In this document: positions 937-26,672 of the stretch, piece after piece
Layout: each line of letters begins with the position of its first letter
How positions within the stretch are numbered: the stretch's first letter is position 1
Position numbers and translations under genes: made by a program
IMG/VR virus record: IMGVR_UViG_3300033571_008366
Span: 1 to 27,778 of that record
From: a virus
Length of the DNA stretch: 27,778 nucleotides
Direction: 5' to 3' (one strand)
Notes under the pieces: generated by a model
Database searches by the model: none
What the model was told of the DNA's origin: nothing
Seen by the model: only the letters and a program-made list of their open reading frames with translations

Positions 937-1311
937 ATGAGCGCACCCCAGGCTTCCCCGGCTGCCACGATCAGAGCGATTGATCGCCTTCGCAAGGCTG
1001 CAAATTTTGAACCGATCAGACAAGTTGTCACCCTTGAGAATGGTGACGAGGTGACATTTTACGCTGCTCCGCTTACTGCTGCAGAGCGTGAACGGGCGCA
1101 AAAAGATGCCAAGTCTGACAGCGCTGGTGATTTTGCAATGCAATTGCTAATCGCAAAGGCACTTGATGAAAACGGTCAAAAGCTGTTCAAGCCTGGCGAC
1201 ATTCCCGTTTTGAAGATGGAAGTTGAGGACGAGGATCTACAGAAAATGATTCTGTGTGTACTGAGGCCGAGGGGTTCAAACAGCGCAGAGCCAGACGCCA
1301 AAAGTAATTGA
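937..1311 (+). CDS. Tail assembly chaperone, gpG-like (short frame)
   Basis: This 124-aa acidic, helix-rich protein sits between the tail tube and tape measure genes, the position of the lambda G gene. In siphoviruses this protein coats the tape measure during tail assembly and is absent from the finished virion. The N-terminal part (VVTLENGDEVTFYAAPLTAAERERAQ, read as two shorter pieces VVTLENGDEVTF and APLTAAERERAQ) is typical of phage tail chaperones, with a beta hairpin followed by a charged helix. It ends RPRGSNSAEPDAKSN before TGA. A second, start-less frame opens at 1265 and continues to 1495, so a minority of ribosomes probably shift to make the longer gpGT form. The start is preceded by CTCCTTTT, with no Shine-Dalgarno sequence. 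Confidence 0.75.
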   Translation: MSAPQASPAATIRAIDRLRKAANFEPIRQVVTLENGDEVTFYAAPLTAAERERAQKDAKSDSAGDFAMQLLIAKALDENGQKLFKPGDIPVLKMEVEDEDLQKMILCVLRPRGSNSAEPDAKSN

Positions 1312-4500: not shown

Positions 4501-6937
4501 TTTCAACAAACAGCAACAAATCCAGCGTGATCAAATTTCAAATGATCGCCTCAGAAAGCAAATTGCAATTGATACCGTAGACCTCCAGTACAGCAAGATG
4601 ATCTCCAATGAAGAGGGCAGGGCCGCTGCTGTTCTTTCAGCGGAAGCCGATCTGGTGAAGATGCGTAGTACAAATGCAGCCGAGATTGAAGTAGCTCGTC
4701 GCAGTCTTGAGATTGACATTGCAAAACAACAGCGCGATACGCAAAACTACATTTACGGACTCGCCCGTGAAGCTGACTCAATTCGCCGCGCAACCCTGAA
4801 CTACGAAGTTCAAATTGAAGATTACAGAATTGCACAGGAGAGGAAGATTGCGGAAATCCGTAGGAGTGTTATGAGGGAAGAAGAAGACATACAAATCAAG
4901 CGTGATCGCGGTTCGCCCGTCTACCAGGGGCAGGCGATGGGCGATGGGGCCTACGCGGGGAAGACGGGTGGTGGACAGCTAGATGCAAGCGCTGGAAGAA
5001 GCTCGGGGCCTCACTTACATGCACAGGGTGGCCCAAGTATAGAGGCATTACGCCGTTGGGTCGATAGTGCGCTCAGCTTTAATGGAATGACCGCTTCACA
5101 ATTAAGCATCAAAACTTCTGGACGCTTGGGGCGAGGGGCTTACGGGCCTGGCGGGCATGGATACATTGGACAGGATTATTACATTGATCAAGCAACACCA
5201 TTTGCTTTGCGCCCTGGCTGGCAGTCAACTGATATGGGAATTCGCGGTGCGCTGGGTCGCGGGTTGGCAGTTAAAGGGCCAAATGGGGAATCTTTTCAGC
5301 TTGGCCACCTTGTCGATGCAGTAACTACTGCTGCTAGGTCTGGGGCAGCGCAATCTGCAAGCGCTGCACCCGCCGCTGGCCGCACAAACACAGAGGCCGC
5401 CATTGTAAAAGCAAATACTAACGATGCTGTAGTTCAAGCCCGTCCAGCAATTCCCGGTGTTCCTGTCTCTAAAATTAGCGGACAGCAGACAGCACTTGAC
5501 AATCAAGGTAACAAGATCAAGCAGGATGCAATTGCTCTTCAGGAAAAATTAAACAAACTTGGCGAAGAAGGTGCGCTTCAGAGGGTACTTGATGCTGCAA
5601 GAGGCGAGAATACTGTCAAACAGAAGAACCGTGAGCTTGACATACTCAAAGCAGAGGCAATGTCAATTGATGCAACGGCTTCCGAAAAGCAGGCAATTGC
5701 AACACTTGACGCAAGATCGGCGGAGACGCTGAAGCAAGTTAGAAGTGAGAACGAAACTATACTAAAAAATACAAAGCTAACCGGCAAGGAAAAGGAAAAG
5801 CTTGTTGAGGCAACCGCAAAATATCTGGCAAATACAGAAGCTGCTCTTGCCGTAGACAAGGCAATGCTTGAGACTCAGCAGGAAATGCGATTTATTTCTG
5901 AAATTGCAGAGAAGCGACTACAGCTCAGGAATCGTGATGCTGCTATAAATGTTGGATTCTTTGGCGCTGGAGCACAGGCCTACAATCAAGAGCTTACAGC
6001 CGGAAGTGGCGATTCAGCAAAGGCGGCAGAACAAGCTCGATTAACAAGAGCGTCTGAGGTTCAAAATGAGATTGTCCAAATTCGTGAAAATATTCAAAGC
6101 TTAATTGATCCAACGAATCAAGTTATCGGAGGTGCGAAAGCAATTGGCGGCGCTTTCAGCGATAGCTTCAAGGCTGTATTCCTTGGTGCGAAATCTGGAA
6201 GAGAGGCTTTGGCTGATTTCTTCCAGAAAACTGGCGAGCATTTCCTTGAAATGGCAACCCAGATGATGGCGCAAAAGATAATTCTTGATTTGATTGGTTT
6301 TGGCCTAAGTAGCTTTGGCCTTAGTGGTGCGACTGGCAGTATCGCAAGTGGCTTTCAGTTGCCGGGCCAAGCCTTTATGCCAGCAGGCGGTAGTTTTAAG
6401 TTTGCAAATGGTGGAGCGTTTACAAACTCTGTTGTTTCTTCGCCAACACTATTTCAGTTCGCCAACGGAGGAGCCCTCAGTAACGGCGTGATGGGCGAGG
6501 CGGGGCCAGAAGCCGTCATGCCTCTTTCAAGGGGGCCAGGGGGGCGTCTGGGCGTCGATGCGAGCGGAATGGCAACAGCCTCCCGCGAAGCGTTGCAGCA
6601 GGCTGGCCAGGAGGTTGCTGCCTCCCGCGAAGCGTTGCAACAGGTATCGCAAAGTGATAGCAGCAAAGGAGCGGTCGGGACTAATGGCTTTGCACCGCAA
6701 AGTAAAATGTTTGCTGAATCAAGGCAAGCACTTGCAACCTCTACTAGATCGCAGGAGACAGCCTCTTCTGAGAGTCCTGCGCCACTTAGGATTGAAACTA
6801 TTCAAGTTGGCAAGCTTGATGTTGTTACTGTTCAACAAGCAAAAGCAATTGCTGATGCAAGCTCAGCTCGCGGGAACGCCAAGCAAACAAGGCTGCTACA
6901 GTCAAGTCCTGCGGCTCGCAGGTCAATGGGGATCTAA
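1562..6937 (+). CDS. Tape measure protein with an M23-peptidase-like segment
   Basis: At 1791 aa this is the largest product in the window. It sits directly after the chaperone, so it should set tail length and pass through the tube at DNA ejection. It starts with GTG. Long stretches are charged coiled coil, rich in Lys, Glu, Arg, Gln and Ala. Residues about 678-744 are a Gly/Ala-rich hydrophobic segment likely to enter a membrane. Residues about 1115-1250 carry peptidase M23-type motifs in unusual order: GPHLH (H1151, H1153), then HGYIGQD (H1199, D1205), then GHL (H1249). The C terminus has FANGG repeats and MGEAGPEAVMPLSRG, typical of tape measure tails. Two tandem-like internal repeats lie near residues 293-363, and ASREALQQ is duplicated near residue 1675. 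The stop codon overlaps the next start by one base (TAATG). No lambda gpK-type NlpC/P60 gene follows, so this segment may be the tail's wall-degrading activity. Confidence 0.92.
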   Translation: MASYEAQINVILNGQRSIDALASSLGEVQAAIDQIERRWRSATQLIQRTQIRLNAIGTEPPRGQGGRFTGDPNRQARFEAYAVQRRARGEEFLSRRAIARGRSEEAIVGNQITGQREAIKLAERRAEIESRQNSAAILFERQLQAFRRGGGGTRLDPQLQERAREAQAAYNAIGGAASRNRGLVSALATEMGRVVQAQNEMNRGGSLRSKAFETSRRTLERISAVEDQGMVSGSRLRRARNLANPITEAANSGDQFAFSEATRKANAFISRLERESQASVRRAKTQAPMQSALGAMEGRGSNPFGISDKQINKVLDARASDYMKGLAETEKLQQVLGGMEGKKYNPFGISDKQINEGYQVRASNLIEAEKATKKATIEGLKSAIALEKQRLTAVERILQVEEKIKSAKRITKAEALDYYFQGGLQQLALPFGDESLPGIRGGARRGAGRNIERLGGARTADQAQSTLRFAQANSQLAKSVSAVDTEYNRFLPDTKMLNATGRGIQRLKTDQDQFNESVKSGTRFQQKYNEEQERQRKIYGNRYPVGTVKPDGMAKGAPIDGQKKLTSIYNANRILLGKVVELEARGLNAASERIAIRNQENRILSGTFNITSKNLDAEYEALSVISRSIQLYGQREKILKSQSTGYPSSPIGGGVNMPGSPIFNQTPFLERRFGARGGAAISEGLIGGAFPLLFGQGVGAAAGGGLGGALGGFAGGGLGFGLSLIGTAVGSALDGVTAAAKDAAASLQDPITNFQKLADSGLALSNASLKADQAQQLQIRNLIEYGNSTKAAAIIQGELAKKIGVLAMRDMANLDNQSVRLGKAWAELNLQIQAAIAGPLAGLLEWTANMINLFTSGTRKKVDEQNFIDSLPADVKKEYIRQKQANLYGAQPDAAIRAKFQGQAGPLNLPKANIDPLKLQEEQDKLRQEDRDKDDKLLQRKIEAEDLIRNSQNQSRQFEYQLIDLRRQGIDLQRRVNDDIFNKQQQIQRDQISNDRLRKQIAIDTVDLQYSKMISNEEGRAAAVLSAEADLVKMRSTNAAEIEVARRSLEIDIAKQQRDTQNYIYGLAREADSIRRATLNYEVQIEDYRIAQERKIAEIRRSVMREEEDIQIKRDRGSPVYQGQAMGDGAYAGKTGGGQLDASAGRSSGPHLHAQGGPSIEALRRWVDSALSFNGMTASQLSIKTSGRLGRGAYGPGGHGYIGQDYYIDQATPFALRPGWQSTDMGIRGALGRGLAVKGPNGESFQLGHLVDAVTTAARSGAAQSASAAPAAGRTNTEAAIVKANTNDAVVQARPAIPGVPVSKISGQQTALDNQGNKIKQDAIALQEKLNKLGEEGALQRVLDAARGENTVKQKNRELDILKAEAMSIDATASEKQAIATLDARSAETLKQVRSENETILKNTKLTGKEKEKLVEATAKYLANTEAALAVDKAMLETQQEMRFISEIAEKRLQLRNRDAAINVGFFGAGAQAYNQELTAGSGDSAKAAEQARLTRASEVQNEIVQIRENIQSLIDPTNQVIGGAKAIGGAFSDSFKAVFLGAKSGREALADFFQKTGEHFLEMATQMMAQKIILDLIGFGLSSFGLSGATGSIASGFQLPGQAFMPAGGSFKFANGGAFTNSVVSSPTLFQFANGGALSNGVMGEAGPEAVMPLSRGPGGRLGVDASGMATASREALQQAGQEVAASREALQQVSQSDSSKGAVGTNGFAPQSKMFAESRQALATSTRSQETASSESPAPLRIETIQVGKLDVVTVQQAKAIADASSARGNAKQTRLLQSSPAARRSMGI
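2438..2650 (+). repeat. Internal 129-bp-period repeat in the tape measure gene
   Basis: The segments at 2438-2521 and 2567-2650 encode related peptides with the shared core NPFGISDKQIN, preceded by GAMEG or GGMEG and followed by a RAS motif. Corresponding bases lie 129 apart (43 codons), so the reading frame is kept. DNA identity is partial, showing an old duplication. Confidence 0.8.
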
Positions 6938-7410
6938 TGGATTACGACATTAGCGAAGGCGTCTATGTGCAGTTTTTAACGAAAGCTGGCACACCAACTG
7001 GATATGCGTTTCAACAATTTCATCAGGGTGAAATACGCACCTACAAGGGTGTTGAATTCTTATTTGCTCCATTTGAGTATAGTGGCGCAAGTATTGATTT
7101 AGGTTTTCCAAATGCGGAAGCGGTGCTGGCATTTCATACCAGTGTGCTTGGCTTAAATATTTGGAAGCAAGCATCAGATGATTTTTGGATTGCTAGGGTA
7201 CGCACTGTATGGCTTGATCCGTTAACACTTGATGAAACTGGAGTCGAGATGGTCGATAACTATGCTGTTACCGGCTTTGATCACGATCTTCAAATAGTAA
7301 GCTTGCGCCTTGGAAGTCCATTGGACGCCATTGGCTCCGACTGGCCACGTAGAGTATTGACACAGGCAATGGTCGGTGCATTGCCACCAAATGGAGAGGT
7401 CAGCTTCTAA
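6937..7410 (+). CDS. Minor tail protein at the gpM/gpL position (DUF1833-like)
   Basis: This 157-aa protein lies between the tape measure and the gpJ-like gene, overlapping each neighbour's start or stop by one base (TAATG at both ends), so translation is probably coupled. The C-terminal part reads SLRLGSPLDAIGSDWPRR followed by VLTQAMVGALPPNGEVSF. This resembles small tail-tip proteins that connect the tube end to the tip complex. The earlier part is mixed beta with FAPFEYSGASIDLGF. There is no signal peptide or Cys cluster, so it lacks the iron-sulfur half of lambda gpL. I infer a distal-tail/tip connector role from position and a loose family resemblance; the exact family is not certain. 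Confidence 0.6.
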   Translation: MDYDISEGVYVQFLTKAGTPTGYAFQQFHQGEIRTYKGVEFLFAPFEYSGASIDLGFPNAEAVLAFHTSVLGLNIWKQASDDFWIARVRTVWLDPLTLDETGVEMVDNYAVTGFDHDLQIVSLRLGSPLDAIGSDWPRRVLTQAMVGALPPNGEVSF

Positions 7411-11038: not shown

Positions 11039-11938
11039 ATGGCATCCGTAACTTCAACATATACAGCTACAATTTCTGGATCTGCCGCCGATGTAGCCTA
11101 TTCTTGGTCTGTGCCGGTGGTGCCAGCGGGCGGATTGGTACAATTCAGCACAACCAATACAAGGAGCGTTGTTGCCACATTTAGTGCTAATGGGGTCTAC
11201 GTTCTGCAGTGTCGCGTAACAAGCTCTTCGGCTGCCGATCAATCCCTTAATTTACCTGTTACCTTTAATACAAGCACCAATACATGCAACATTGCTAGCC
11301 ATTCTTTTTCAATAGGCAACGAAATCAGTTTCTTGTCTAATTCCGGCATACTACCTATTGGGTTACTTGAACGCACTCCTTACTATATTCTCTCAAGCGG
11401 TTTTACGTCAAATGCTTTTACGGTTGGAGTTGAACCAGGCGGCTCAGTTATTGATATAAGCGGCTCGGCTTCCGGCACCTACCGAGTAGTCAGGGTTGGA
11501 AGAACAGCTCTTTATACGGTTACAGTAAGTGGCATTACTGATTTAATTTCTGGAGGGCGAATTAGTATCAGCTTCACAACCGGAGTATTAGCGCAATTTG
11601 GTGTAGCTGATTTTACCATGAATGTCGGGAAGCTGGCGGAATTGCTGTCCGTACAGTTGTCTGAGCCGTCTTGGGTAAGGCTCTACCGATCAAGCGCACA
11701 GAGAGCGGCGGATACCAGGAGCAGTCCTGGCGGCACCTTGCAAGCAATGATAAATTTAAGAGACAACAAGCCTTATTCTGAAAACGTAACAACAACAGCA
11801 GGGCAAACAATTATCCAAAACCCAGTCTCAATACAGCAAGGAGACAGCTCTGGCCTTGTCTATGTTAGACTAATTAAGCAAAGTGCTGGGTCTTCGGTTG
11901 TTACGTTGACCATCACGATCTTCCCCCAAGAGGCTTAA
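11039..11938 (+). CDS. Ig-domain tail protein
   Basis: This 299-aa protein has three recognisable parts. Residues 1-75 look like a PKD/Ig-like domain (YTATISGSAADVAYSWS, FSANGVYVLQCRV), similar in style to the C terminus of the preceding gpJ-like protein. Residues about 82-150 carry the module IGNEISF, LPIGLLERTPYYILSSGF, EPGGSVIDISG, which matches the inserted module of the tail tube protein at 63. The C-terminal third (about 195-299) contains WVRLYRSSAQRAADTRSSPGG and ends VTLTITIFPQE, a pattern I associate with cyanophage tail proteins. It probably decorates the tail tip or links fibres to it. The start follows CACCTTTT with no Shine-Dalgarno sequence. Confidence 0.6.
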   Translation: MASVTSTYTATISGSAADVAYSWSVPVVPAGGLVQFSTTNTRSVVATFSANGVYVLQCRVTSSSAADQSLNLPVTFNTSTNTCNIASHSFSIGNEISFLSNSGILPIGLLERTPYYILSSGFTSNAFTVGVEPGGSVIDISGSASGTYRVVRVGRTALYTVTVSGITDLISGGRISISFTTGVLAQFGVADFTMNVGKLAELLSVQLSEPSWVRLYRSSAQRAADTRSSPGGTLQAMINLRDNKPYSENVTTTAGQTIIQNPVSIQQGDSSGLVYVRLIKQSAGSSVVTLTITIFPQEA

Positions 11939-12933: not shown

Positions 12934-13232
12934 TGGCTACAATCACCCACGAAGCGACTCAGGTAAACATCTCAGCAGGCCGGTGGGATGCAGCTATCTA
13001 TGCTGGCACAATTGCAGTCCAACGAGAACTTGGGCCTCAACAAAGGGTGGCCCCTACTGGGTCTACCGTCATAATCAATGGTGTCAATCCCGTAACCCCT
13101 GGCTATCAGACTGCTGGGGGGATCAACTATGTTACCGCTGGCTTTGACCCTGTTCTCCAGGCATATTTTCAGCAGCTATACGAAGTAAGGCTCCTTACAA
13201 CTGGGCAGATATGGCCAGTTGGGTACGGCTAA
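12933..13232 (+). CDS. Small tail-operon protein, unknown
   Basis: This 99-aa protein has no family I recognise. It is beta-rich in the middle (STVIINGVNPVTPGYQTAGG) and ends with a helix-like DPVLQAYFQQLYEVRLL. The ATG overlaps the upstream TGA (TGATG) and it reads in the same direction as all flanking tail genes. It is likely a small tail protein. Confidence 0.55.
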   Translation: MATITHEATQVNISAGRWDAAIYAGTIAVQRELGPQQRVAPTGSTVIINGVNPVTPGYQTAGGINYVTAGFDPVLQAYFQQLYEVRLLTTGQIWPVGYG

Positions 13233-13270
13233 AAATACTATTACACTTAAACCTCTGCGAACCCGATCCA

Positions 13271-13648
13271 ATGAGCGTCAACTTTCCAGCAATCCGACCC
13301 AGCAGCCGGGAATACCGTCCCCCAGCCGTCCCCATCACGGAAACCCGTTCGGAGGCTGGCACGACCTTTAGGAGGCGGCGTGGGAGCCTTGCGGTCGATG
13401 CTGGTGTCTCCCTGCGGTTTGATGTGCGCCCAGAGGCCGACTGGGAAGCGATAGAGGCAGCCTGGCTTGATTCTGATTGCGGGATGATTGACCTTGATCT
13501 GCCGTCAGAGATTTGGAAGCCTGGAAACGCACCTACTCTTCCTGGTTTGCGGTGGAGATTCATTCCAGATCAGCCGCCAGAAAAGTCAAGCGACAAGGAG
13601 CAACGCGCAAAGGTAAATATTACTGTTGAGCTGCGAGCTATTGCTTAG
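13271..13648 (+). CDS. Minor tail protein of the SSRxYxPxxxP type
   Basis: I start this at the internal ATG giving MSVNFPAIRPSSREYRPP (125 aa), because that is the usual N terminus of this family. An upstream in-frame ATG at 13211 would overlap the previous gene by 22 bases and add an unrelated 20-residue leader. The protein shows PSSREYRPPAVPITETRSEAG, then GVSLRFDVRPEADWEAIEAA and a C-terminal strand VNITVELRAI. Small proteins with this plan occur among tail genes of cyanophages. Their role is unknown, but they are probably structural and located at the tail tip. Gene order supports this: tip genes before it, tube-like paralogues after it. Confidence 0.6.
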   Translation: MSVNFPAIRPSSREYRPPAVPITETRSEAGTTFRRRRGSLAVDAGVSLRFDVRPEADWEAIEAAWLDSDCGMIDLDLPSEIWKPGNAPTLPGLRWRFIPDQPPEKSSDKEQRAKVNITVELRAIA

Positions 13649-13723: not shown

Positions 13724-14119
13724 ATGGCAGTGATCACCGGCTCTGGTGGGCAGCTTCGATTCAACGGAACGAAAGTTGCAAAGTGCAAGGACTTTAGCCT
13801 TGATGTTAGTCGAGACGCTATTGAAGATACAGCGCTTGGCTCGGATGATCGTACATTTGTGTCTGGACTGCGTGGAGCCAGTGGAAGCGCAACAATTATG
13901 TACGACCCAGAAGATACTGCAACCAGGAATCTTCTGAATTCAATCCTAAGCGATTCCAGTAGCACGGAACAAGTTGAATTCGTGCTCAATGCTGCACTTG
14001 GCAAAACAATGAAAGCATCGGCACTGATCACTCAGGTTGGTACGCCTGTTTCGGCGGGGGAAATTATTGCCTGCAGTGTTAACTTTCAAGTAACTGGCCC
14101 AATCGTTGGCACCTACTAA
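13724..14119 (+). CDS. Tail-tube-fold protein (copy B, minimal domain)
   Basis: At 131 aa this is the smallest of three proteins sharing a tail-tube core. It reads KDFSLDVSRDAIEDTALG, then SGLRGASGSATIMYDPED, then ATRNLLNSIL and finally IIACSVNFQVTGPI. These align in order with DWTFEITRSEIDVTTIG, ITGFADGTGSATVYMTDED, LANRMIEDVL and SVSINFRPAGPP of the protein at 63. It starts with a glycine-rich MAVITGSGGQLRF strand. A GAGG Shine-Dalgarno sequence lies about 8 bases before the ATG. It could be a tube terminator or initiator ring, a tip collar, or a second tube subunit. Its place after the tip genes argues against its being the main tube protein. Confidence 0.65.
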   Translation: MAVITGSGGQLRFNGTKVAKCKDFSLDVSRDAIEDTALGSDDRTFVSGLRGASGSATIMYDPEDTATRNLLNSILSDSSSTEQVEFVLNAALGKTMKASALITQVGTPVSAGEIIACSVNFQVTGPIVGTY

Positions 14120-15021
14120 TGGCAGTTCTTGGCGCTGGCGGAATCGTAAAACTTCGCCGAGATGCACCAGATCCGGTAACAATTGATTCTGATGCAATTA
14201 ATTCTGCATCCAACACGTTATCAAACTCAAGTATAGGTATTTGGAATGGTGACAGGGTAACCATTACTTGCGAGCGTGGAATCCCGTTTAATGCTGATGG
14301 AGACGGATTCGACTCCCCAGACGGACACGCAATGTACTTTGGGTCCAAGTGGCAACTCGGCCCAAATAGAATTCATATTACTAGCGACTCAAGTGCTTTT
14401 TATTCTCAAAACGATAACGCATTTTTTTATGTTACCGGACCAGTTGGTGAACCTACGACTTCTGCTGTTTACTACGCAAATAGAGATCAGCTAGATAGGC
14501 TGAGCTTTTATAGAAATCGAGGTGCTGCGCTTTCCGGCAGGATGGCTGATCGAATTCCCATTGGTAGCCTTGACTTTGGAACTCTTGAAATTAATGTAAA
14601 CATAAATGATACTGATTGGATGATTCAAGGAATGCTTGCTGAATGGTCACTGAATTTAACAGCTTCCGAGATTGACACAACTTCTGTCGGTGAGCGATTT
14701 GGCGATGCCGTTAAGTCAATTGTAAGTGGTAGCGGAACCATGGACTTTTTTATTGAAAGAGAAAGCAGTAGCACTCTCAGTGATGCAACCATGCTTTTGA
14801 ACCTTCTTCTTCTTACGGAAAAGGGATGCAAGGCGGACGGTGAGTTCTGGATGATTGACAATCGCTTGAGTCATAGAAAGCTCCTGCCTGGCGATTTGTA
14901 TTATGCTAGCGATTTAATGGTTACCAACGTAGCCATCAACACTCGCGCCGGGGAAGCGATTGTCGGTTCATTGAATTTCGTAACCGTTGGCGAGATTGCC
15001 CTGAGACAGGGAATTGAGTGA
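14119..15021 (+). CDS. Tail-tube-fold protein with N-terminal extension (copy C)
   Basis: This 300-aa protein shares its last 130 residues with the tail tube core: AEWSLNLTASEIDTTSVG, then SIVSGSGTMDFFIERE, then LSDATMLLNLLL and IVGSLNFVTVGEI. The first about 150 residues are a different beta-rich region (GIWNGDRVTITCERGIPF), in the place where the tube protein at 63 carries its insert. The ATG overlaps the previous stop (TAATG), so copies B and C are translated together and may form a heteromeric ring or cap. It is a structural tail protein by homology within the window; the exact position is inferred. Confidence 0.65.
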   Translation: MAVLGAGGIVKLRRDAPDPVTIDSDAINSASNTLSNSSIGIWNGDRVTITCERGIPFNADGDGFDSPDGHAMYFGSKWQLGPNRIHITSDSSAFYSQNDNAFFYVTGPVGEPTTSAVYYANRDQLDRLSFYRNRGAALSGRMADRIPIGSLDFGTLEINVNINDTDWMIQGMLAEWSLNLTASEIDTTSVGERFGDAVKSIVSGSGTMDFFIERESSSTLSDATMLLNLLLLTEKGCKADGEFWMIDNRLSHRKLLPGDLYYASDLMVTNVAINTRAGEAIVGSLNFVTVGEIALRQGIE

Positions 15022-15058: not shown

Positions 15059-18000
15059 GTGGCACAGCTCGTTCCAGGTGGCCAGACCGGAGCCGTCGAT
15101 AACCTTTCGGTATCACAGGCTGGTTTTCGCTCTCAAATTGCAACAGCGGTTGAGGGATTGCGTCAACTAATTGGTGCGGCAAATATTGCAAGTGGTAGCA
15201 GCGAATCGACAGACCCATTAACGGCTCCTTTCGTTCTGTATGTTAATCCATATATTGGTAAGGATACTTTCGCGTCTGGCTCCTACAATACCAAAGAAGC
15301 TACTGGCACAACAGAAGAGATTGTTGCTCAAAAACTAAAGCGGCTGGAGAACCAGCGACTTACGTGTGGCTATACGCGCCACGCACCATTTAAAACGATC
15401 AACCGTGCTGTCATCGAAGCGGCAATTATTACCAGCAAAAACTGGTATATCAGCGATCCCCTTGCACACGTTGACTGCGTTTGCATTGTACTGGCTCCAG
15501 GCCTGCACATTGTCTATAATAATCCATCGACAGACTCTTCGGCCATTGCGGTTTCTTCGTGGGCGAATAATTTTGTTCCGACCTGGCAGCATTTAATTAA
15601 GTTTAATCCGGTTGAAGGTGGCGTACTTCTTCCGCGTGGCGCCTCAATCATTTCCGAATTTGGTGATTTGCGTCACACTATTGTCAGGCCAAGCTGGGTT
15701 CCTGATGGAAACGTAGACGAAACTCCGACCTATTCAAATGGAGTTGCTACCTACGCACTGCGTAGGCAAATATTTAAGACTACTGGTGGTGGCTATGCTT
15801 ATGCTATCACTGCTATGGACAAACTTGGTCTTGCGGAATCGCATCACCTTTTGTCAATGTTCGGCCATGCTACTCAAGCTGAACTAAATACGTTCTACGG
15901 AAACGTTTTCACAGCTTGCGGTACTGGCGGCAACTTAAGCCAAGCTTTACTTGTAGCTCGCGGAACAGAGTACATTATTGCTGCGCCTGTTAGTGGCACT
16001 CCTACTCAGGCTTGGGATAGCACGTCTTCCGCATCCTTTTACATTTTTCAATGTTCTGTTCGTTCCAACTTCGGAATGGGGCGACTCTGGGCTGACGGCT
16101 CTAAGGTCCAAGGCTTTAAGTCATTTGTACTGGCTAACTTTACTGGCGTCAGTTTGCAAAAAAGCATCTCCGAGAATGGGGACATGCGTTGCTGGCAGAA
16201 GTATTCCGGTGGTGACTGGATAGCGGTTTCCAATTACGCAGACTACATTTCGCAAGTACCTGACAATATTCGACAAAATCCAGCGCGACGCAGCATTGGC
16301 GTTGCCGCTATCAACGAAGGCTTTATTCAAAAAGTTTCGATCTTTGACATTGGAGAAGGTGCTCAAAGCTTTGTTGATGCAGGCGGCGAGATCGACAGCA
16401 ATAATGGCAACTCATCGTTCGGTGGAGTGGCTGGACTTGCGAAGGGATACAGGGCTTCGTCATTTCCAAATGACAAAAACTGGCAGATTAACGCAGTCAA
16501 GGTGCCGCTTAGCCCTGAATTTAAAACAGGCAATATTCAGCGATATTACCTGGGAACCGTTAGTGCAATTACCCCTAACGCTGTAACGTTAACAAGTGCG
16601 CTTGCGGCCTATGGCACTAGCTCAACGATTCCAGATATTCTAGGTCAGGCTGGCTACACTCTGCCTGCTTCTACTTATTTGTGGATTGAGAATCCGCAAG
16701 GTACGGACTGGCGGGCTTTGGTTACAGCTAGCGCTTGGTCGTCTGTTGCTCCAGCAGCACTCAATATCAGCGCAGCAGCTACGACGCCAAACGGCTTCGC
16801 CATTGGCTTAGATACCAACGGCATTTCTCTAGCAGTTGGCTGCCGTGTTTACGTTCGTCGCCTTGTTGATACTCGTACACCCGCTGAGCGGCGTATGTCG
16901 CTTAAGCTTGTAAATACAACCGCAGCTCGCATCCCAACATCTAGCTACGTTCTTCAGACCAGTAGCACTTCAGCATCTATTGCACGTCAACTTAGTCCAA
17001 CTACCGAGTTGCTACTTGTTACCTCCTCCGGCACTGGTGATGCTTCTAGTGGTGGACTCAAGACCGCAGAAATTACCTTGCGGCGCGGCGGAACTGCAAT
17101 TAACTACGCAAACAATACGTCCTATAGGTCTGGCACTGTTGTTCTTCACAACAACAAGCACTACATCAACTCCAGGGATCTAACAACTTCAACTACTGCA
17201 CCAGATCCGGCTCTATGGCAAGAAACATATGTGCACATGGAGTCGTCGTACGCGCCAGAGGATAACCTTAAAAACGAAGCTCTTACGCTTGTCTTTGATA
17301 CTGACACTGACGGTGCCGAAGTAACGGCAACTTGCGGTATTAATTGGGCAACTGCCTGGACGACTTCTGCCGCAATTTATAGTCAGTATCGCTCCAGCGT
17401 TGACTATCTGGGCGCCTTCCTGTTGCTGACCGCACTGGGGTACGGCTCCAGCGATGCTCACGCCGCCCTGATTCCCCGCGCAGAGGCATCCAGGAGCCGC
17501 AACACGGCACTTACATCGAACCCTGCTACTAGCCTTGCCCTTAGCAGCGTCTCCCCCTCTGGCGGGGCCGCAAACGCGGCTGCGAATTGGCCGATTGAAT
17601 TCCGTCGCCCGTCAACTCTGTGGATGGGGTCGCATCGTTGGTTCTCTTCTGGTTCCGGTAACTACTCAAAATCTGTGCCTGCTGCAGCACAGGATATGAG
17701 CGCTCAGAACCGATTTACATATTATTTTACCAGCCAAGGTGGCGGTCGTGTTATTCCACAAGGAAGCCAAGAAGATGGGCTGTTGGTTTCGCCGCGTGGA
17801 CTGGAAGATACAACAACTGGTCGGACGCTTAGTGTTGAAAGCATTGGCGCTGGTGATGTTGCTCAGAGTAGCGTCTTCCCAACACTTACCGTAACAAGTG
17901 AGTTTACTGTAGACGGAGCGGCTAACTTCAGGGGTCCAATTAACTTTGAAACCACTCAACAGGCTCAAACGACAAGACTTGGCCCAGCCAAGCTGGCACG

Positions 18001-19852
18001 TTATACCGAGGTAATTAAGACCGGACCCGCCGCTTCGATTGCTATAAACGATGCGTCAATCGACGGCTCGCCTGAGATTGTGACAGTACCGGCTTTAAAT
18101 GCTTGGAAGAATGCAAACCAGCTAGTTAGTGCTTTAACGGGGGAAATTTTTATATTCGTCAATAGTGAGGCTACCGATCGTGACCTAAACAGCATGAAGC
18201 TGAGGCCGCCAACAAGCTCCGATGATGCTATTCCAAGTCTTGCCCGTGCTGCTGAATATGCAAATTACGTGCTTGCCGGTTCAGAGCAGACTGCAGTAAT
18301 TAAGGTATGCCCCGGCTACTACCACTCGGGGTCAAATTGGACATGCAAGGTAAGGCTTGAGGCGTGGAACAGTACATTTACGGCAATGCCGTTTCCAAGC
18401 AATAGCCTAGGCTCAGCGACTGTGCCAAATAACTATTACGACGGTACAGGCTACGATAACGCATCGCTGATTCCGCAAATACTTTGCTTGCGCCTTGTTC
18501 TGCGTTTTGGTCCTCAAGCGGGCATGACGGGTGGAAGTTACAATTTGCATATTGCGAATTACAATAATACAATGGTCTTTGAGAAAAGCGTTAAATTTCT
18601 TGGTGGATTCGCGTTTCTTGGGTTAGCGGAAACGATTAAATACGTTGGCGTAAACGCGGCTCAGAGGGCGGGATTGTTTATGTTTTCCGGTAGTCCACAG
18701 TTGACGACAGCACAAATCAATAACCTGACCTATTCAAGCATTGTTTCATCCAATGTTGACGCATTTCTTAGTAGCGTCAGGAATACAACAGGCTTCACGG
18801 GTCAGTTCTCCACATGGTGCGACTATCCTGTTATACAGATTAAATCACGGGCGACTGATCTCATAGAACTTCAGGATTGCATTTTTGGTCCTGGTTTGCC
18901 ATCGCACAAGGAAAACCTTGGCGGCGGCAGGCCCGCATACATTGATGTGTCCACCGAGGTTCCACTTGAAATCCGAAACATTTACCTGAGAGGTAACACG
19001 ACAATCACAAGCGCTGGAATCAGTGCTGGCAATGCTACCGCCATCACGACCGCGCTTGATGGTTCTGGAGGTTATCACTACGGAGCCCTCGTCCCTGCCC
19101 CCTGGACACACAGACAGTTCTATCATACCTTTATTAGCACAATGACAGTCAATAAGCTCAACATCAGAGCACTTGGCTCTTACGGTAACTATGTAGTGCG
19201 GACAGCAGATGCCGGTACGATAAGCGAGGGAGTTAATGATTGGTATGCTGACCTCACGGGCAAGCTACTGCCAAACCATATCCACCTTTTGGCGAGTAGC
19301 ACAGCATCAACTGCTCCCAATAGTTTTACCCCAGCCGCAGGGTTGGCGTACCCAGCGACAGGGGATTACGACAGCGGACCATTCCTTGATCAATTTATTC
19401 ACGCAAAGTATGGCATTTCTTTTGAGTGGGTTTGGCTTAATATTAATGGCATCAGTAGCACCAGGCCGGTATGGCAGGGGTTCTTGGGTCGGTTTGGGTC
19501 CAACGGCCATAACACCGTCAAAACTAGAGGCATTTTACTCGGCAACACCCTAGGTGAGGTAGAAGGAGGATGTGAAGTCACCCTTGGTAACAGGTGGCAG
19601 AGAGGATCTTCACCATTCCTTAAGGCAGGCATCTTGGACCCAAATACCAACATTTCGGTTGCTCCTTTTGTTCAAGGTTCAGCCACTTACGGAGAGGCCA
19701 ATCCCGTAGTCAAAACGAATGCAACTAGATCTATTACTACCAGAGACAACAACTCAACGACACTAGACTTGAACCTTGGCCTGGTTAGCTGGGTCAGGGG
19801 CATCAGCCCTGAATACGGCACCAACATCCGTCCTGCTAACTTCGCCGCCTAA
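15059..19852 (+). CDS. Large tail fibre with pectate-lyase-like beta-helix segments
   Basis: This 1597-aa virion protein starts with GTG; no ATG lies near. The N terminus (MAQLVPGGQTGAVDNLSVSQ) is short and may dock to the tip. Residues about 109-150 (APFKTINRAVIEAA, ending CVCIVLAPGLHIV) and about 1053-1085 (IPSLARAAEYANYVL, ending AVIKVCPGYYHSG) are two versions of the cap that opens right-handed beta-helices. Residues about 682-725 (NTSYRSGTVVLHNNKHYINS, then DPALWQE) resemble a small carbohydrate-binding module. The rest is Ser/Thr/Asn/Gly-rich. This is the size and style of the very large fibres in cyanophages, so I infer attachment to host surface polysaccharide. No catalytic residue pattern for a depolymerase is obvious. 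A palindrome with a -10-like box lies just upstream. Confidence 0.75.
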   Translation: MAQLVPGGQTGAVDNLSVSQAGFRSQIATAVEGLRQLIGAANIASGSSESTDPLTAPFVLYVNPYIGKDTFASGSYNTKEATGTTEEIVAQKLKRLENQRLTCGYTRHAPFKTINRAVIEAAIITSKNWYISDPLAHVDCVCIVLAPGLHIVYNNPSTDSSAIAVSSWANNFVPTWQHLIKFNPVEGGVLLPRGASIISEFGDLRHTIVRPSWVPDGNVDETPTYSNGVATYALRRQIFKTTGGGYAYAITAMDKLGLAESHHLLSMFGHATQAELNTFYGNVFTACGTGGNLSQALLVARGTEYIIAAPVSGTPTQAWDSTSSASFYIFQCSVRSNFGMGRLWADGSKVQGFKSFVLANFTGVSLQKSISENGDMRCWQKYSGGDWIAVSNYADYISQVPDNIRQNPARRSIGVAAINEGFIQKVSIFDIGEGAQSFVDAGGEIDSNNGNSSFGGVAGLAKGYRASSFPNDKNWQINAVKVPLSPEFKTGNIQRYYLGTVSAITPNAVTLTSALAAYGTSSTIPDILGQAGYTLPASTYLWIENPQGTDWRALVTASAWSSVAPAALNISAAATTPNGFAIGLDTNGISLAVGCRVYVRRLVDTRTPAERRMSLKLVNTTAARIPTSSYVLQTSSTSASIARQLSPTTELLLVTSSGTGDASSGGLKTAEITLRRGGTAINYANNTSYRSGTVVLHNNKHYINSRDLTTSTTAPDPALWQETYVHMESSYAPEDNLKNEALTLVFDTDTDGAEVTATCGINWATAWTTSAAIYSQYRSSVDYLGAFLLLTALGYGSSDAHAALIPRAEASRSRNTALTSNPATSLALSSVSPSGGAANAAANWPIEFRRPSTLWMGSHRWFSSGSGNYSKSVPAAAQDMSAQNRFTYYFTSQGGGRVIPQGSQEDGLLVSPRGLEDTTTGRTLSVESIGAGDVAQSSVFPTLTVTSEFTVDGAANFRGPINFETTQQAQTTRLGPAKLARYTEVIKTGPAASIAINDASIDGSPEIVTVPALNAWKNANQLVSALTGEIFIFVNSEATDRDLNSMKLRPPTSSDDAIPSLARAAEYANYVLAGSEQTAVIKVCPGYYHSGSNWTCKVRLEAWNSTFTAMPFPSNSLGSATVPNNYYDGTGYDNASLIPQILCLRLVLRFGPQAGMTGGSYNLHIANYNNTMVFEKSVKFLGGFAFLGLAETIKYVGVNAAQRAGLFMFSGSPQLTTAQINNLTYSSIVSSNVDAFLSSVRNTTGFTGQFSTWCDYPVIQIKSRATDLIELQDCIFGPGLPSHKENLGGGRPAYIDVSTEVPLEIRNIYLRGNTTITSAGISAGNATAITTALDGSGGYHYGALVPAPWTHRQFYHTFISTMTVNKLNIRALGSYGNYVVRTADAGTISEGVNDWYADLTGKLLPNHIHLLASSTASTAPNSFTPAAGLAYPATGDYDSGPFLDQFIHAKYGISFEWVWLNINGISSTRPVWQGFLGRFGSNGHNTVKTRGILLGNTLGEVEGGCEVTLGNRWQRGSSPFLKAGILDPNTNISVAPFVQGSATYGEANPVVKTNATRSITTRDNNSTTLDLNLGLVSWVRGISPEYGTNIRPANFAA

Positions 19853-20401: not shown

Positions 20402-21711
20402 CTTCTACTTATTTTGATCCCAGCAAAGTTCTTGTTATTAAGGTCGAGTCCGCTGGCCCCCCTGGTATTGGCCTGCCCGCTGGCACTGCTGACGCCGGAA
20501 AGTTTGTACAAAAGGACGGAGTAAACGCATACCAATACCGGCTGGTAACCCTTGATCAGGTATCTGTTCAATCGGTAGCAGGAAGAACAGGCGCTGTTAC
20601 GTTAGTCAAGGCAGATGTTGGACTAAGCAATGTTGACAACACCGGCGACCTTGCCAAGCCAATATCTACAGCTACGCAAACAGCGCTTAACCTGAAAGCC
20701 AGCCCGGCAGAGGCAGCAGCGGCAGCCCCTGTTCAGTCTGTGGCGGGACGCACTGGAGCGGTGGTGCTCGCTGTTGCCGATGTTTCAGGCGCAGCATCCA
20801 GCTCTGCGCTGTCCTCAGGTCTGGCCAGTAAAGCCGATCTGGTCGGCGGTCTGGTGCCACCAGCCCAACTTCCTGGTTTTGTTGACGACGTTCTGGAGTT
20901 TGCCACGTTTGCGGCGTTCCCGGTAACAGGCGAAACAGGGAAGTTATACGTCAGCTTGGCAACCAATCGGATTTGGCGCTGGTCAGGCTCTATCTATGTG
21001 GAGGTTGTTTCATCTCCTGGATCTACCGATGCGGTGGCAGAAGGGTCGGTCAATCTCTATTTCACGACTGCCAGAGGCGAGGCGGCGGCGGCTTCGTGGT
21101 GGACTGGATCGGCGCCTAAGACCAAGCTCGATGGCATTGCCGCCGGGGCCACGGCAAACAGCTCAGACGCCACCCTGCTGGCCAGGGGGAATCACACCGG
21201 CACCCAGGCGTTCTCGACGATCACCAGCACGCCCACCACGCTGAGCGGTTACGGGATCACTGATGGCTTCACCCAGGCCAACGTCCGCGCAACACCAATC
21301 ACTGGCTTTACCAGCAGCGCCGGGACTGTTGCCGCAACAGATTCGATCCTGCAGGCGATTCAGAAGCTCGACGGCAACGACGCCGCAAAATTGCCAATCA
21401 CCTTCACCGCCAGCACGATCACCTATGCCTCCACGGTTGATCTCGATATGTTATCGCTGGCCGGTAAGTATTGCACAATCAGTCTAACTGGAAACTTAGA
21501 GTTGACGGCCCTGAACCGTGCTTCAGGCCGCCAGGTGACGCTGCGCCTGGTCTGCGATGCCACGAATCGCACCCTGACTTTCCCGGCGGCGTGGGTGTTC
21601 CTGGGGACCAAACCCAGCAGCCTGGCAGCTAGCAAGACGGCTGTGCTTAGTCTTACGTTCTTCGGTGCTAACAATGCCGATTGCGTTGCAGCTTATGGGG
21701 TGCAGGGATGA
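20398..21711 (+). CDS. Tail fibre with repeated SVAGRTGAV elements
   Basis: This 437-aa fibre begins MTSTYFDPSKVLVIKVESAG and then SAGPPGIGLPAGTADAGKFV. It carries the well-known phage fibre repeat VQSVAGRTGAV twice (about residues 56-67 and 112-123), the first followed by LVKADVGLSNVDNTGDLAKP. Further fibre motifs are KTKLDGIAAGATAN and LARGNHTGTQAFSTI. The last about 100 residues form a beta-rich tip (YCTISLTGNLELTALNRASG). Bases about 20700-21620 are clearly richer in G and C than the start of the gene, suggesting module exchange. The start overlaps the previous stop by four bases, and its stop overlaps the next ATG (ATGA). It is likely a trimeric host-range fibre. Confidence 0.8.
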   Translation: MTSTYFDPSKVLVIKVESAGPPGIGLPAGTADAGKFVQKDGVNAYQYRLVTLDQVSVQSVAGRTGAVTLVKADVGLSNVDNTGDLAKPISTATQTALNLKASPAEAAAAAPVQSVAGRTGAVVLAVADVSGAASSSALSSGLASKADLVGGLVPPAQLPGFVDDVLEFATFAAFPVTGETGKLYVSLATNRIWRWSGSIYVEVVSSPGSTDAVAEGSVNLYFTTARGEAAAASWWTGSAPKTKLDGIAAGATANSSDATLLARGNHTGTQAFSTITSTPTTLSGYGITDGFTQANVRATPITGFTSSAGTVAATDSILQAIQKLDGNDAAKLPITFTASTITYASTVDLDMLSLAGKYCTISLTGNLELTALNRASGRQVTLRLVCDATNRTLTFPAAWVFLGTKPSSLAASKTAVLSLTFFGANNADCVAAYGVQG

Positions 21712-22496
21712 CAACGCTGAGCCTGCGGGATCTAGGCTTTTTGGGAGGGCTAAATGGCTACGACACCGACGCGCAGACTTACATCACAGCGGTCGAAGCG
21801 GCAGACGGTCAATCATTAGAAGCAGCAACGAAACAAGCTATCAATGATTTTGTCGTTGGCTGCAAGGTAGACAACATCTGGAGCGCGATTAAAGCCAGCT
21901 GCATTCTTGCTGGTGCAAGGACGCTGGCTGGTGCGCTTGTGCCGCTGGTAGGAACTGCGCCAACCAATAACAATTTTGTTTCTGGTGATTACAACCGGAA
22001 GACGGGGCTGGTGGGAGATGGCACCACTAAGTATCTGTTTAGCAATCGGAATAACAATGCAGACGGTCAAGACAGCAAGCATATCATGGTTTACGCTACG
22101 ACTCCAGACACAAGAACAAGCACTAGAGGCTACATAGGCGCTTCGTACACTGGCGCCGGCTGGAGTGCAATTATTGAGGGTGGAACCTCATTATCTAACC
22201 AGATATATGTCAATGGTTCGCAGGGCGTGTATAGAATAGGGAACACTGCCGGGTTTATAGGCTGCAACCGTGGCAGTGCAAGCATCGTGCAAGGTCGTAA
22301 TGGTGGCATAACGACTAGCTTTGCTAGAACAAGTGAGACGCCAAGTTCAGGTCCCATCTTTGTATACGCCACTAACCCCTCTGGTGAGCGAACATCAGCT
22401 CGCATTGCTTTCTATTCAATCGGTCAATCCCTAGACCTTACGCTGTTTGATAACAGAGTTACGGCCTTAATCACCGCCATAGGGGTGGCGTTCTGA
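21708..22496 (+). CDS. Putative receptor-binding tail protein
   Basis: I use the ATG at 21708, which overlaps the upstream TGA (ATGA), giving MTTLSLRDLGFLGGLNGYDT and 262 aa. An ATG 27 bases upstream lies inside the fibre gene and adds an unrelated leader. The protein has a helical segment (INDFVVGCKVDNIWSAIKAS, then GARTLAGALVPLVGTAPTNN) followed by a Gly/Ser/Thr-rich part beginning SGDYNRKTGLVGDGTTKYL that looks like a jelly-roll or lectin-like domain. I recognise this combination from phage and prophage tail fibre regions. Its place between a fibre and a fibre-assembly-type gene supports receptor binding. Base composition is lower in GC than on both sides. Confidence 0.6.
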   Translation: MTTLSLRDLGFLGGLNGYDTDAQTYITAVEAADGQSLEAATKQAINDFVVGCKVDNIWSAIKASCILAGARTLAGALVPLVGTAPTNNNFVSGDYNRKTGLVGDGTTKYLFSNRNNNADGQDSKHIMVYATTPDTRTSTRGYIGASYTGAGWSAIIEGGTSLSNQIYVNGSQGVYRIGNTAGFIGCNRGSASIVQGRNGGITTSFARTSETPSSGPIFVYATNPSGERTSARIAFYSIGQSLDLTLFDNRVTALITAIGVAF

Positions 22497-24003: not shown

Positions 24004-24588
24004 ATGACTCAACCAGCGCCGAATCAAATGCAATCTGAGTGGGGTACAAGGGTTCATGCTTTGAACCTATCCCAGCCTGATGGCAGCACCTGTCAATCTG
24101 CCTGCATTGCAATGGCAATTGGCACAAAAGATATTTACGACATTAGGAGCCAATTAATTCGATTGGGCGAAGCTGGCCATCCGTCGAATATGGGACAAGT
24201 TCTCAGGCGCTTTAAAGGGAAAAAGTATATCTACGATGAAAGCGCCTCCATTGATGACATGGTAGGATACCTAAAAGCCGGTGAGTTCTTGATTACTCAC
24301 GGCTGGTTTACTGGTAGCGGTCACGTTATTGCACTTGATGGTGTAAAGCTACACGAAAACAATCGTGCAAGCTTTAACGTAAAAGATCCGTGGAGTGAAT
24401 TTGACGGCCCTTCCTGGAGTTACAACAAGCCAACCGTAAAATTCTTTGATGGCTTTTACAGCGATAGAATTATCTATGCCGCCTGTGTTGCCGGAACAAG
24501 TAGATGGGATGCAAGCAACCTTTATCGCAGCAAAGAAATCCCAAATGTCAATCTTGGCCAAGCCTGGGTTCACCGTATTCTCCCATAG
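24004..24588 (+). CDS. C39-like cysteine peptidase; endolysin candidate
   Basis: This 194-aa protein has the arrangement of papain-like C39 peptidases: DGSTCQSACIAMAIG with Cys30 as likely nucleophile, GSGHVIALDGV with His107, and NVKDPW with Asp128 as third residue. The distances fit a single catalytic domain covering most of the protein. No signal peptide is present, so it would rely on a holin to reach the cell wall. C39-like domains are used by some phages as cell-wall peptidases, and its place after a holin candidate suggests the endolysin. A virion-associated or processing peptidase is an alternative. Its 3' end overlaps the convergent gene by 41 bases. Confidence 0.65.
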   Translation: MTQPAPNQMQSEWGTRVHALNLSQPDGSTCQSACIAMAIGTKDIYDIRSQLIRLGEAGHPSNMGQVLRRFKGKKYIYDESASIDDMVGYLKAGEFLITHGWFTGSGHVIALDGVKLHENNRASFNVKDPWSEFDGPSWSYNKPTVKFFDGFYSDRIIYAACVAGTSRWDASNLYRSKEIPNVNLGQAWVHRILP

Positions 24589-25684: not shown

Positions 25685-26347
25685 TTAGATTCTCGCCAAA
25701 GTAACAACATTCCCCTGATCCTGATACTTTCCTTCGCCATAAGGGTTATCGCAAACACTGCCTTCCATAAAGAGCGCTTGGGCAATTCCCTCATTCGCGT
25801 AGATTCTACAGTCAGCACCAGAGCTGTTGCTGATCTCAAGCGTCAGAAACCCCTCCCATCCAGCTTCACCAGGGGTTGTATTTACAATAATCCCACAGCG
25901 AGCGTAAGTGCTTTTACCAATGAATAGTGCTGTAATGTTAGGTGGAAGTTTAAGTCGTTCAAGCGTTACGCCAAGTGCATAGGTGTGAGCGGGAAGAATA
26001 AAATACTCACCGAACCCGTCGGCATAAAGCTCCGTTGATACCAGACAGCGATCATCAAAAGCTTTTGGGTTTACAATTAATCCAGGGACATGGTGAAAAA
26101 TACGAAAATCGTGAGGCGCGAGCCTAAGGTCGTAACCGTAGCTACTGCACCCAAAGCTAATAGCTGGAGCGGAGCACTTGTTTACCAGGCCGGTGCGGGG
26201 ATCTCTGTACAAACCTGTTTGCGAAAGATCCCAAGAATCAAATTTAATCTTGCGAACTTTATCGTACTCAAATGGAGTAATCATTCCTTCTTCCGCAAAG
26301 GAACGAATGTAGCGATCAGAAAGAAAACCAGTTTGTCGGTTAGTCAT
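25685..26347 (-). CDS. dcd: dCTP deaminase family enzyme
   Basis: I start at the ATG at 26347, giving MTNRQTGFLSDRYIRSFAEE and 220 aa. The frame is open for 45 further codons upstream, but these lie in the neighbouring gene and are unlike the family. Family motifs are clear: LSDRYI at the N terminus, SSYGYDLRL (68-76), KSTYARCG (145-152, with the catalytic-site Arg), TLEISN containing the likely catalytic Glu171, and GKYQDQG near the end. The enzyme deaminates dCTP to dUTP, a route to dTTP; some relatives also hydrolyse dUTP, which cannot be decided here. It is slightly longer than the usual about 190 aa because of residues 30-65. The start overlaps the upstream stop by 8 bases. Confidence 0.88.
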   Translation of the reverse strand: MTNRQTGFLSDRYIRSFAEEGMITPFEYDKVRKIKFDSWDLSQTGLYRDPRTGLVNKCSAPAISFGCSSYGYDLRLAPHDFRIFHHVPGLIVNPKAFDDRCLVSTELYADGFGEYFILPAHTYALGVTLERLKLPPNITALFIGKSTYARCGIIVNTTPGEAGWEGFLTLEISNSSGADCRIYANEGIAQALFMEGSVCDNPYGEGKYQDQGNVVTLARI

Positions 26348-26672
26348 GGTTTTGGGGTTGAAATAAATTGCAAATAGTAGCAAAGGACGGATCGTCAATA
26401 GCATCGGGAAATCCGAAGCTACAACTTTCTTTATAGTGATGGCAATTGTAGCATAACTGAGAAACGCTTCCCTGTCGAGCACCCATGGCTATGGCCTCCT
26501 GTCGAATGGAATGTTTCGATCTTGAACCAATAAACTCACTCCAGCGATGGTTGCAGCTTTCGGAGAGACATTTGTACCTACGTCGCCTGCTTCCATTTAA
26601 GTGAGGTCTTGTTTCGATTAGCTTTGCTTTTGCCCCACAGACCTTGCAATGAAGTTTTCTCGGATTACCCAC
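26340..26672 (-). CDS. Zinc-ribbon protein with C-terminal Cys cluster
   Basis: The 110-aa protein starts with GTG (MGNPRKLHCKVCGAKAK), with GGAGGT three bases upstream. Its N-terminal ribbon has C-x2-C, then IETRPHLNGSRRRRYKCLSE and SCNHRWSEF. This resembles the zinc ribbon of NrdR (CxxC, RP, G, RRRRxxC, RWxxFE) or Ogr-type activators, but there is no ATP-cone. The C terminus, QLCYNCHHYKE, then SCSFGFPDAI and ICNLF, matches the Cys-rich end of the protein at 25344. Lying next to dCTP deaminase, it might be a regulator; this is inference. It overlaps both neighbours by 8 bases. Confidence 0.6.
   Translation of the reverse strand: MGNPRKLHCKVCGAKAKLIETRPHLNGSRRRRYKCLSESCNHRWSEFIGSRSKHSIRQEAIAMGARQGSVSQLCYNCHHYKESCSFGFPDAIDDPSFATICNLFQPQNHD

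Follow-up and report, generated by a model that had tools for sequence, protein, structure and literature searches.

Introduction

Rings of tube-fold proteins in tail tips are already known, represented by gpM, Dit and the T4 proteins gp48 and gp54. In lambda, gpM is topologically identical to the tube protein gpV, and the N-terminal domain of gpL resembles gpV as well (PMC10721106). The N-terminal domain of the 80alpha Dit protein adopts the tube fold, which is found in both Dit and Tal (PMC7048315). The distal tail protein of JBD30 is a tip adaptor containing two tube-protein-like domains, each with an inserted domain (PMC11445458). In T4, gp48 and gp54 are present in six copies each at the baseplate-tube junction, where they provide a platform for the tube (PMC3004832, PMC8718954). 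Two annotated major tail proteins have also been recorded in actinophage clusters AM, AU, AW, BI, CC, DJ and EL (PMC11080557).

The window analyzed here covers a virus record of 27,778 bases from end to end and, judged by its genes, represents the tail half of a siphophage. Its genes are ordered A, chaperone, tape measure, a 157-aa protein, the gpJ-like 1203-aa protein (J), proteins of 299, 330, 99 and 145 aa, B, C and a fibre (Table 1). A first-pass annotation had described A, B and C as three tail-tube-fold paralogues within one tail cluster and had raised the possibility of a tube made of, or capped by, several related subunits. It cited as precedent the tube fold shared by distal tail and tail terminator proteins; this precedent holds, and gpM, gpL and T4 gp48/gp54 can be added to it.

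Results

The window and its probable host

All three open reading frames are present as first described (Table 1). By A, the closest isolates are the cyanophages KBS-S-2A, whose protein at the equivalent position is 62% identical, and S-2L (34%). By J, they are S-LBS1, S-CBS1, S-CBS3 and Mic1, with matches to the tail proteins of S-LBS1, S-CBS1 and Mic1. Because the nearest isolates by both proteins are cyanophages, the host is probably a cyanobacterium.

Other genes lie beyond the tail cluster. Positions 25685-26482 on the minus strand encode a dCTP deaminase (PHROG 1663, 1e-52), and positions 24004-24585 give a weak C39-like peptidase match under the Pfam cut-off. A PHROG 17104 protein is encoded close to the fibre genes (21681-22493); KBS-S-2A has two homologues of it, positioned 5' of the head closure gene (28450-30085), and the different placement in the two genomes indicates that this gene is mobile inside the structural region.

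Table 1. Tail genes of the window and the evidence for each assignment.
Feature	Position	Strand	Basis
A, main tail tube protein, 257 aa	63..836	+	PHROG 1407 major tail protein 2.7e-5; directly 5' of chaperone and tape measure
Tail assembly chaperone-like protein	937..1311	+	PHROG 20784 5e-28; PHROG 344 tail assembly chaperone 1.4e-6
Tape measure protein, 1791 aa	1562..6937	+	PHROG 32885 and 1716 tape measure
Tip protein, 157 aa, gpL-like	6937..7410	+	Position; relation to Mic1 'Phage tail L'
J, gpJ-like tip (hub) protein, 1203 aa	7410..11021	+	PHROG 27845 tail protein 9e-17
gpM-like minor tail protein	13211..13648	+	PHROG 15525 minor tail protein 2.8e-8
B, tube-fold protein (predicted), 131 aa, first of coupled pair	13724..14119	+	PHROG 10528 2.7e-11; predicted fold
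TAATG, B stop / C start overlap by one base	14117..14121	+	Sequence
C, tube-type protein (by homology), 300 aa, second of coupled pair	14119..15021	+	Profile-profile 97.7-98.0% to A and B
Long tail fibre, 1597 aa, directly 3' of C	15059..19852	+	PHROG 529 tail fiber protein 1e-59

Sequence relationship of A, B and C

The shared motifs quoted in the first-pass annotation were found in all three sequences: RDWTFEITRSEIDVTTIG ... SINF in A, KDFSLDVSRDAIEDTALG ... SVNF in B and AEWSLNLTASEIDTTSVG ... SLNF in C. A tblastn search of the window record with B recovered A at E 1.2e-5. Family HMMs built from relatives of each protein recovered the other two window proteins in every direction: the B model matched A (1.8e-17) and C (3e-8), the C model matched A (8e-16) and B (3e-11), and the A model matched B (4e-7) and C (7e-5). 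As a control, 9,460 reversed ORFs gave no match to any of these models at E<=10. In profile-profile alignments with hhalign, probabilities were 98.6% for A-B (E 5e-16), 97.7% for A-C (E 2e-12) and 98.0% for B-C (E 1e-13), and five neighboring tail proteins used as controls scored no higher than 1.1% against A, B or C. Chance resemblance between beta proteins is ruled out by the reversed-sequence and neighbor controls. Judged by these profile comparisons, A, B and C are homologous.

The homologous region common to all three is the tube domain, which spans approximately residues 115-250 of A and is preceded there by an inserted domain. C also carries a large insert past its first strands. The A-C alignment (212 columns) extends across the insert, which lies past the first strands in both proteins and is missing from B. 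The 299-aa protein of the window (11039-11935) was matched by the A model at 3e-4, apparently via the inserted domain of A, which suggests a decoration domain common to these two proteins.

The tube-domain tree places C in one group (98/94) and A in another, with S-2L beside it (weak, 78/46 support), while B falls near the tube proteins of other phages; internal branches are long. The underlying alignment is short, with few columns, and the deep forks are therefore unsure. Recent local duplication is ruled out by the separate A and C groups, the position of B near other phages' tubes and the long internal branches. The tree thus places the split of A, B and C as an old one, and B may derive from the tube gene of another phage.

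Family assignment and predicted folds of B and C

Profile searches against tail tube families place neither B nor C among unrelated families. Of 59 relatives of B, 56 match PHROG 10528, as does B of the window; C of the window has no such match, and 20 of its 67 relatives do. Across both families, matches are almost exclusively to major tail families. No profile match to a distal-tail or gpM family was found for B or C, and none to the terminator (gpU) family. The two genes are placed 3' of the tip genes, and in relatives the terminator sits 5' of the tube gene. Sequence searches of the PDB with profiles returned only weak matches to the SPP1 and PBSX tubes for B (E 0.02-0.2) and only unrelated matches for A and C.

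AlphaFold2 models of B and C were made from alignments of the window protein with related proteins and reached pLDDT values of 70.7 and 75.4, respectively. The B model superposes on the RcGTA tail tube with Z 11.9 (rmsd 3.2, 124 residues) and on the tubes of monocin (Z 11.5), lambda V (Z 10.7) and R4C (Z 10.4), and Foldseek matches it to tail tubes at E ~1e-6. B is therefore predicted to be a compact single domain with the tail-tube fold. For C, the best match of a middling-confidence model is to the tube protein CD1364 (Z 7.6, rmsd 3.8, 107 residues). Most of its structural matches are tube-fold proteins, including tubes, Hcp, Dit and tube-type baseplate chains, and no Foldseek match below 1e-3 was obtained for it in the PDB or in BFVD. 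The proposal that both proteins share the tube fold thus held for the model of B, while for C, with Z up to 7.6 and no strong Foldseek match, the model weakly suggests the same fold. Homology in sequence is the stronger evidence that C is a tube-type protein.

The B-C gene pair

B and C had been noted to follow the tip genes and to be translationally coupled. Their position was confirmed, as was the one-base overlap (Table 1). Relatives recovered by scanning viral contigs numbered 80 for A, 3 for B and 80 for C. In each of 86 distinct pairs, B lies directly 5' of C on the same strand, and the stop codon of B overlaps the start codon of C in 75 of the 86 (by one base in 45 and by four bases in 30). 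Within the B-C family, either gene was seen without the other at contig ends only; the B model also detects the canonical tube proteins of isolates, which were left out of this tally. B and C are an obligate pair.

The pair always lies between J, or J and the gpM-like gene, and the fibre gene, so that the gene 5' of B is either J or the gpM-like gene. Compared with relative L001, dN/dS is 0.05 for B and 0.19 for C, values at which both genes are evolving under purifying selection. These ratios and the conserved overlap rule out that B and C are decayed genes. No relatives of C were found among phage isolates, and neither a profile search for further B loci nor a search with A for prophage copies in bacterial genomes returned anything usable.

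Standard tip proteins beside the pair

The gpM-like protein of the window has no sequence similarity to B or C detectable by hhalign. Its family, PHROG 15525, is encoded right 3' of the tape measure in some relatives and 3' of J in others. Two or more copies of this family are present in the tail clusters of S-LBS1, Mic1 and S-CBS1. Iterated searches joined the 157-aa protein to S-CBS1 gp16, S-LBS1 A22 and Mic1_31. The gpM and gpL identities of these two window proteins are putative and rest on position and family name. Since the gpM-like protein belongs to a separate family and the 157-aa protein groups with the Mic1 'Phage tail L' protein, B and C are extra to the lambda-like set. Read from its genes, the tail tip has gpM-, gpL- and gpJ-like proteins plus B and C, which are encoded next to the fibre.

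Inheritance of B and C with the tip

Across 17 contigs, mean pairwise identity is 72% for A and 76% for the chaperone, compared with 32% for J and 38% each for B and C; the 157-aa protein also falls within 32-38%. Identities correlate at 0.93 for B-C, 0.87 for B-J and 0.83 for C-J, and at 0.33 for both A-B and A-C, across contigs that are related, so that the pairs compared are not independent. Physical linkage accounts in part for the way B and C track J, because the genes adjoin.

More telling than correlated divergence are three records in which B-C is present and the family of A is absent. Two of these encode an unrelated PF18906 tube protein 5' of the tape measure (E 1e-27 and 6e-26), and the third has a 192-aa protein at the place of the tube gene. 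The first of them has the order tape measure, gpM-like, 157-aa-type, gpK-like, J and B, the same as in relatives that carry A. Conversely, the isolates KBS-S-2A and S-2L have A and lack both B and C. The occurrence of B-C without the family of A, and of A without B-C, indicates that B and C belong to a tip cassette that can be exchanged. The place just 5' of the chaperone and tape measure is that of A, while B and C follow J.

The suggestion that all three proteins make up or cap the tube was not borne out, as the divergence of B and C tracks that of J but scarcely that of A, and as B-C and A each occur without the other. Tip-linked inheritance of the pair provides no evidence for a mixed tube and points instead to two additional tube-fold proteins in the tail tip.

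The fibre gene and the C-terminal tail of C

Wherever the gene 3' of C could be read (67 loci), its product begins with one of two fibre N-terminal types. Some relatives of C outside the group of the window have a C-terminal tail of ~32 residues with LLQED..LLLE-type repeats (e.g. L100, 11585-12478), which is missing from C of the window. Relatives with the tail are followed by one fibre type and tail-less relatives by the other. This association fits a contact between C and the fibre, and it cannot be counted as independent support because it reflects a single evolutionary switch. The first N-terminal type also occurs on fibres of KBS-S-2A, which lacks B and C, so that these two proteins are not needed for that anchor. 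The same observation weakens the idea that B and C are a general fibre socket.

Discussion

B resembles siphophage tube proteins (lambda gpV, RcGTA, R4C and monocin; PHROG 10528 and 1407; PF16460 and PF18906) in both profile and predicted fold, and C resembles them via the PHROG 10528 matches of its relatives. However, siphophage tube genes sit 5' of the chaperone and tape measure, whereas B and C are encoded 3' of the tip genes, in genomes that have a second, normally placed tube gene, and the pair evolves with the tip. Lambda gpM and Dit are likewise tip proteins with the tube fold, as predicted for B, but the gpM-like gene here is a separate one. JBD30 differs in that a single trimeric protein contains both domains as a fusion, whereas B and C are two genes. 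More than one tube-type protein per siphophage is also seen in the actinophages, where the likeness comes from annotation (PMC11080557), and in Synechococcus phage S-H1. S-H1 has two tandem tube-type genes (32532-32945 and 32951-33370), annotated as hypothetical and positioned 5' of the tape measure; both were matched by the B and C models, and no third tube-type copy was found in that genome. The S-H1 genes adjoin 5' of the tape measure, in contrast to B-C, which lies in the tip cassette beside the fibre gene.

On balance, we favor a structural role for B and C in the tail tip. By analogy with known tips, they would form ring or adaptor layers next to the hub and the fibre, and the coupling of their genes would fit one joint complex. 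Their presence in the virion, ring formation and copy number, and the fibre rather than the tube as their partner, are what we infer. A more specific proposal, which we put forward tentatively, is that the lambda-like siphophage tip has an additional layer, a two-protein tube-fold adaptor probably built of stacked or mixed rings, and that the cassette containing it along with hub and fibre moves between phages with unrelated tubes, letting fibre-bearing tips swap tube types.

The pair might instead act as initiator rings placed where the main tube meets the hub, supplying a first ring for the tube and adapting it to the tip. This reading takes its appeal from T4, in which gp48 and gp54, two tube-fold proteins whose genes belong to the baseplate set, likewise supplement the main tube protein (PMC3004832, PMC8718954), though in a contractile tail. 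The C model does match tube-type chains of contractile baseplates, but plain tube proteins score equally well. The gpM-like and gpL-like proteins, which do that job in lambda, are present here too, and B-C occurs with at least two unrelated tube proteins and does not follow A in its divergence, so that we regard an initiator role as unlikely. It is less plausible still that B or C copolymerizes with A or caps the tube. The tube domain common to the three proteins and the two major tail proteins annotated in some siphophages (PMC11080557) would suit such a mixture, but conservation of A at ~72% against ~38% for B and C, the weak correlation with A, and the occurrence of B-C where A is absent and of A where B-C is absent speak against it.

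Proximity to the fibre gene would also suit a role in assembly, with B and C acting on the hub or fibre, for instance as scaffold or chaperone, and not being retained in the virion. This is improbable given that B is predicted to have the tube fold and that both proteins are related in sequence to structural tube proteins. The most far-fetched of these readings, in our view, is that B and C build a second, short tube or stalk that is either distal to J or surrounds it and holds the fibre away from the hub: tube proteins are able to polymerize, B is by prediction a compact single-domain tube protein and the fibre gene comes next, but no tape-measure-like or terminator gene accompanies B-C.

Annotation pipelines would tend to give A, B and C one and the same label, 'major tail protein', and under it a widespread group of uncultivated, probably cyanobacterial siphophages seems three-tubed. 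The comparison made here assigns two of the three tube-type proteins to an exchangeable tip cassette. If confirmed, B and C would be an extra layer undescribed for lambda-like tips in the cited literature and an example of tube proteins reused as tip adaptors. These phages would also be a natural set in which one tip is carried on at least two unrelated tube types, which would inform what a tip requires of its tube.
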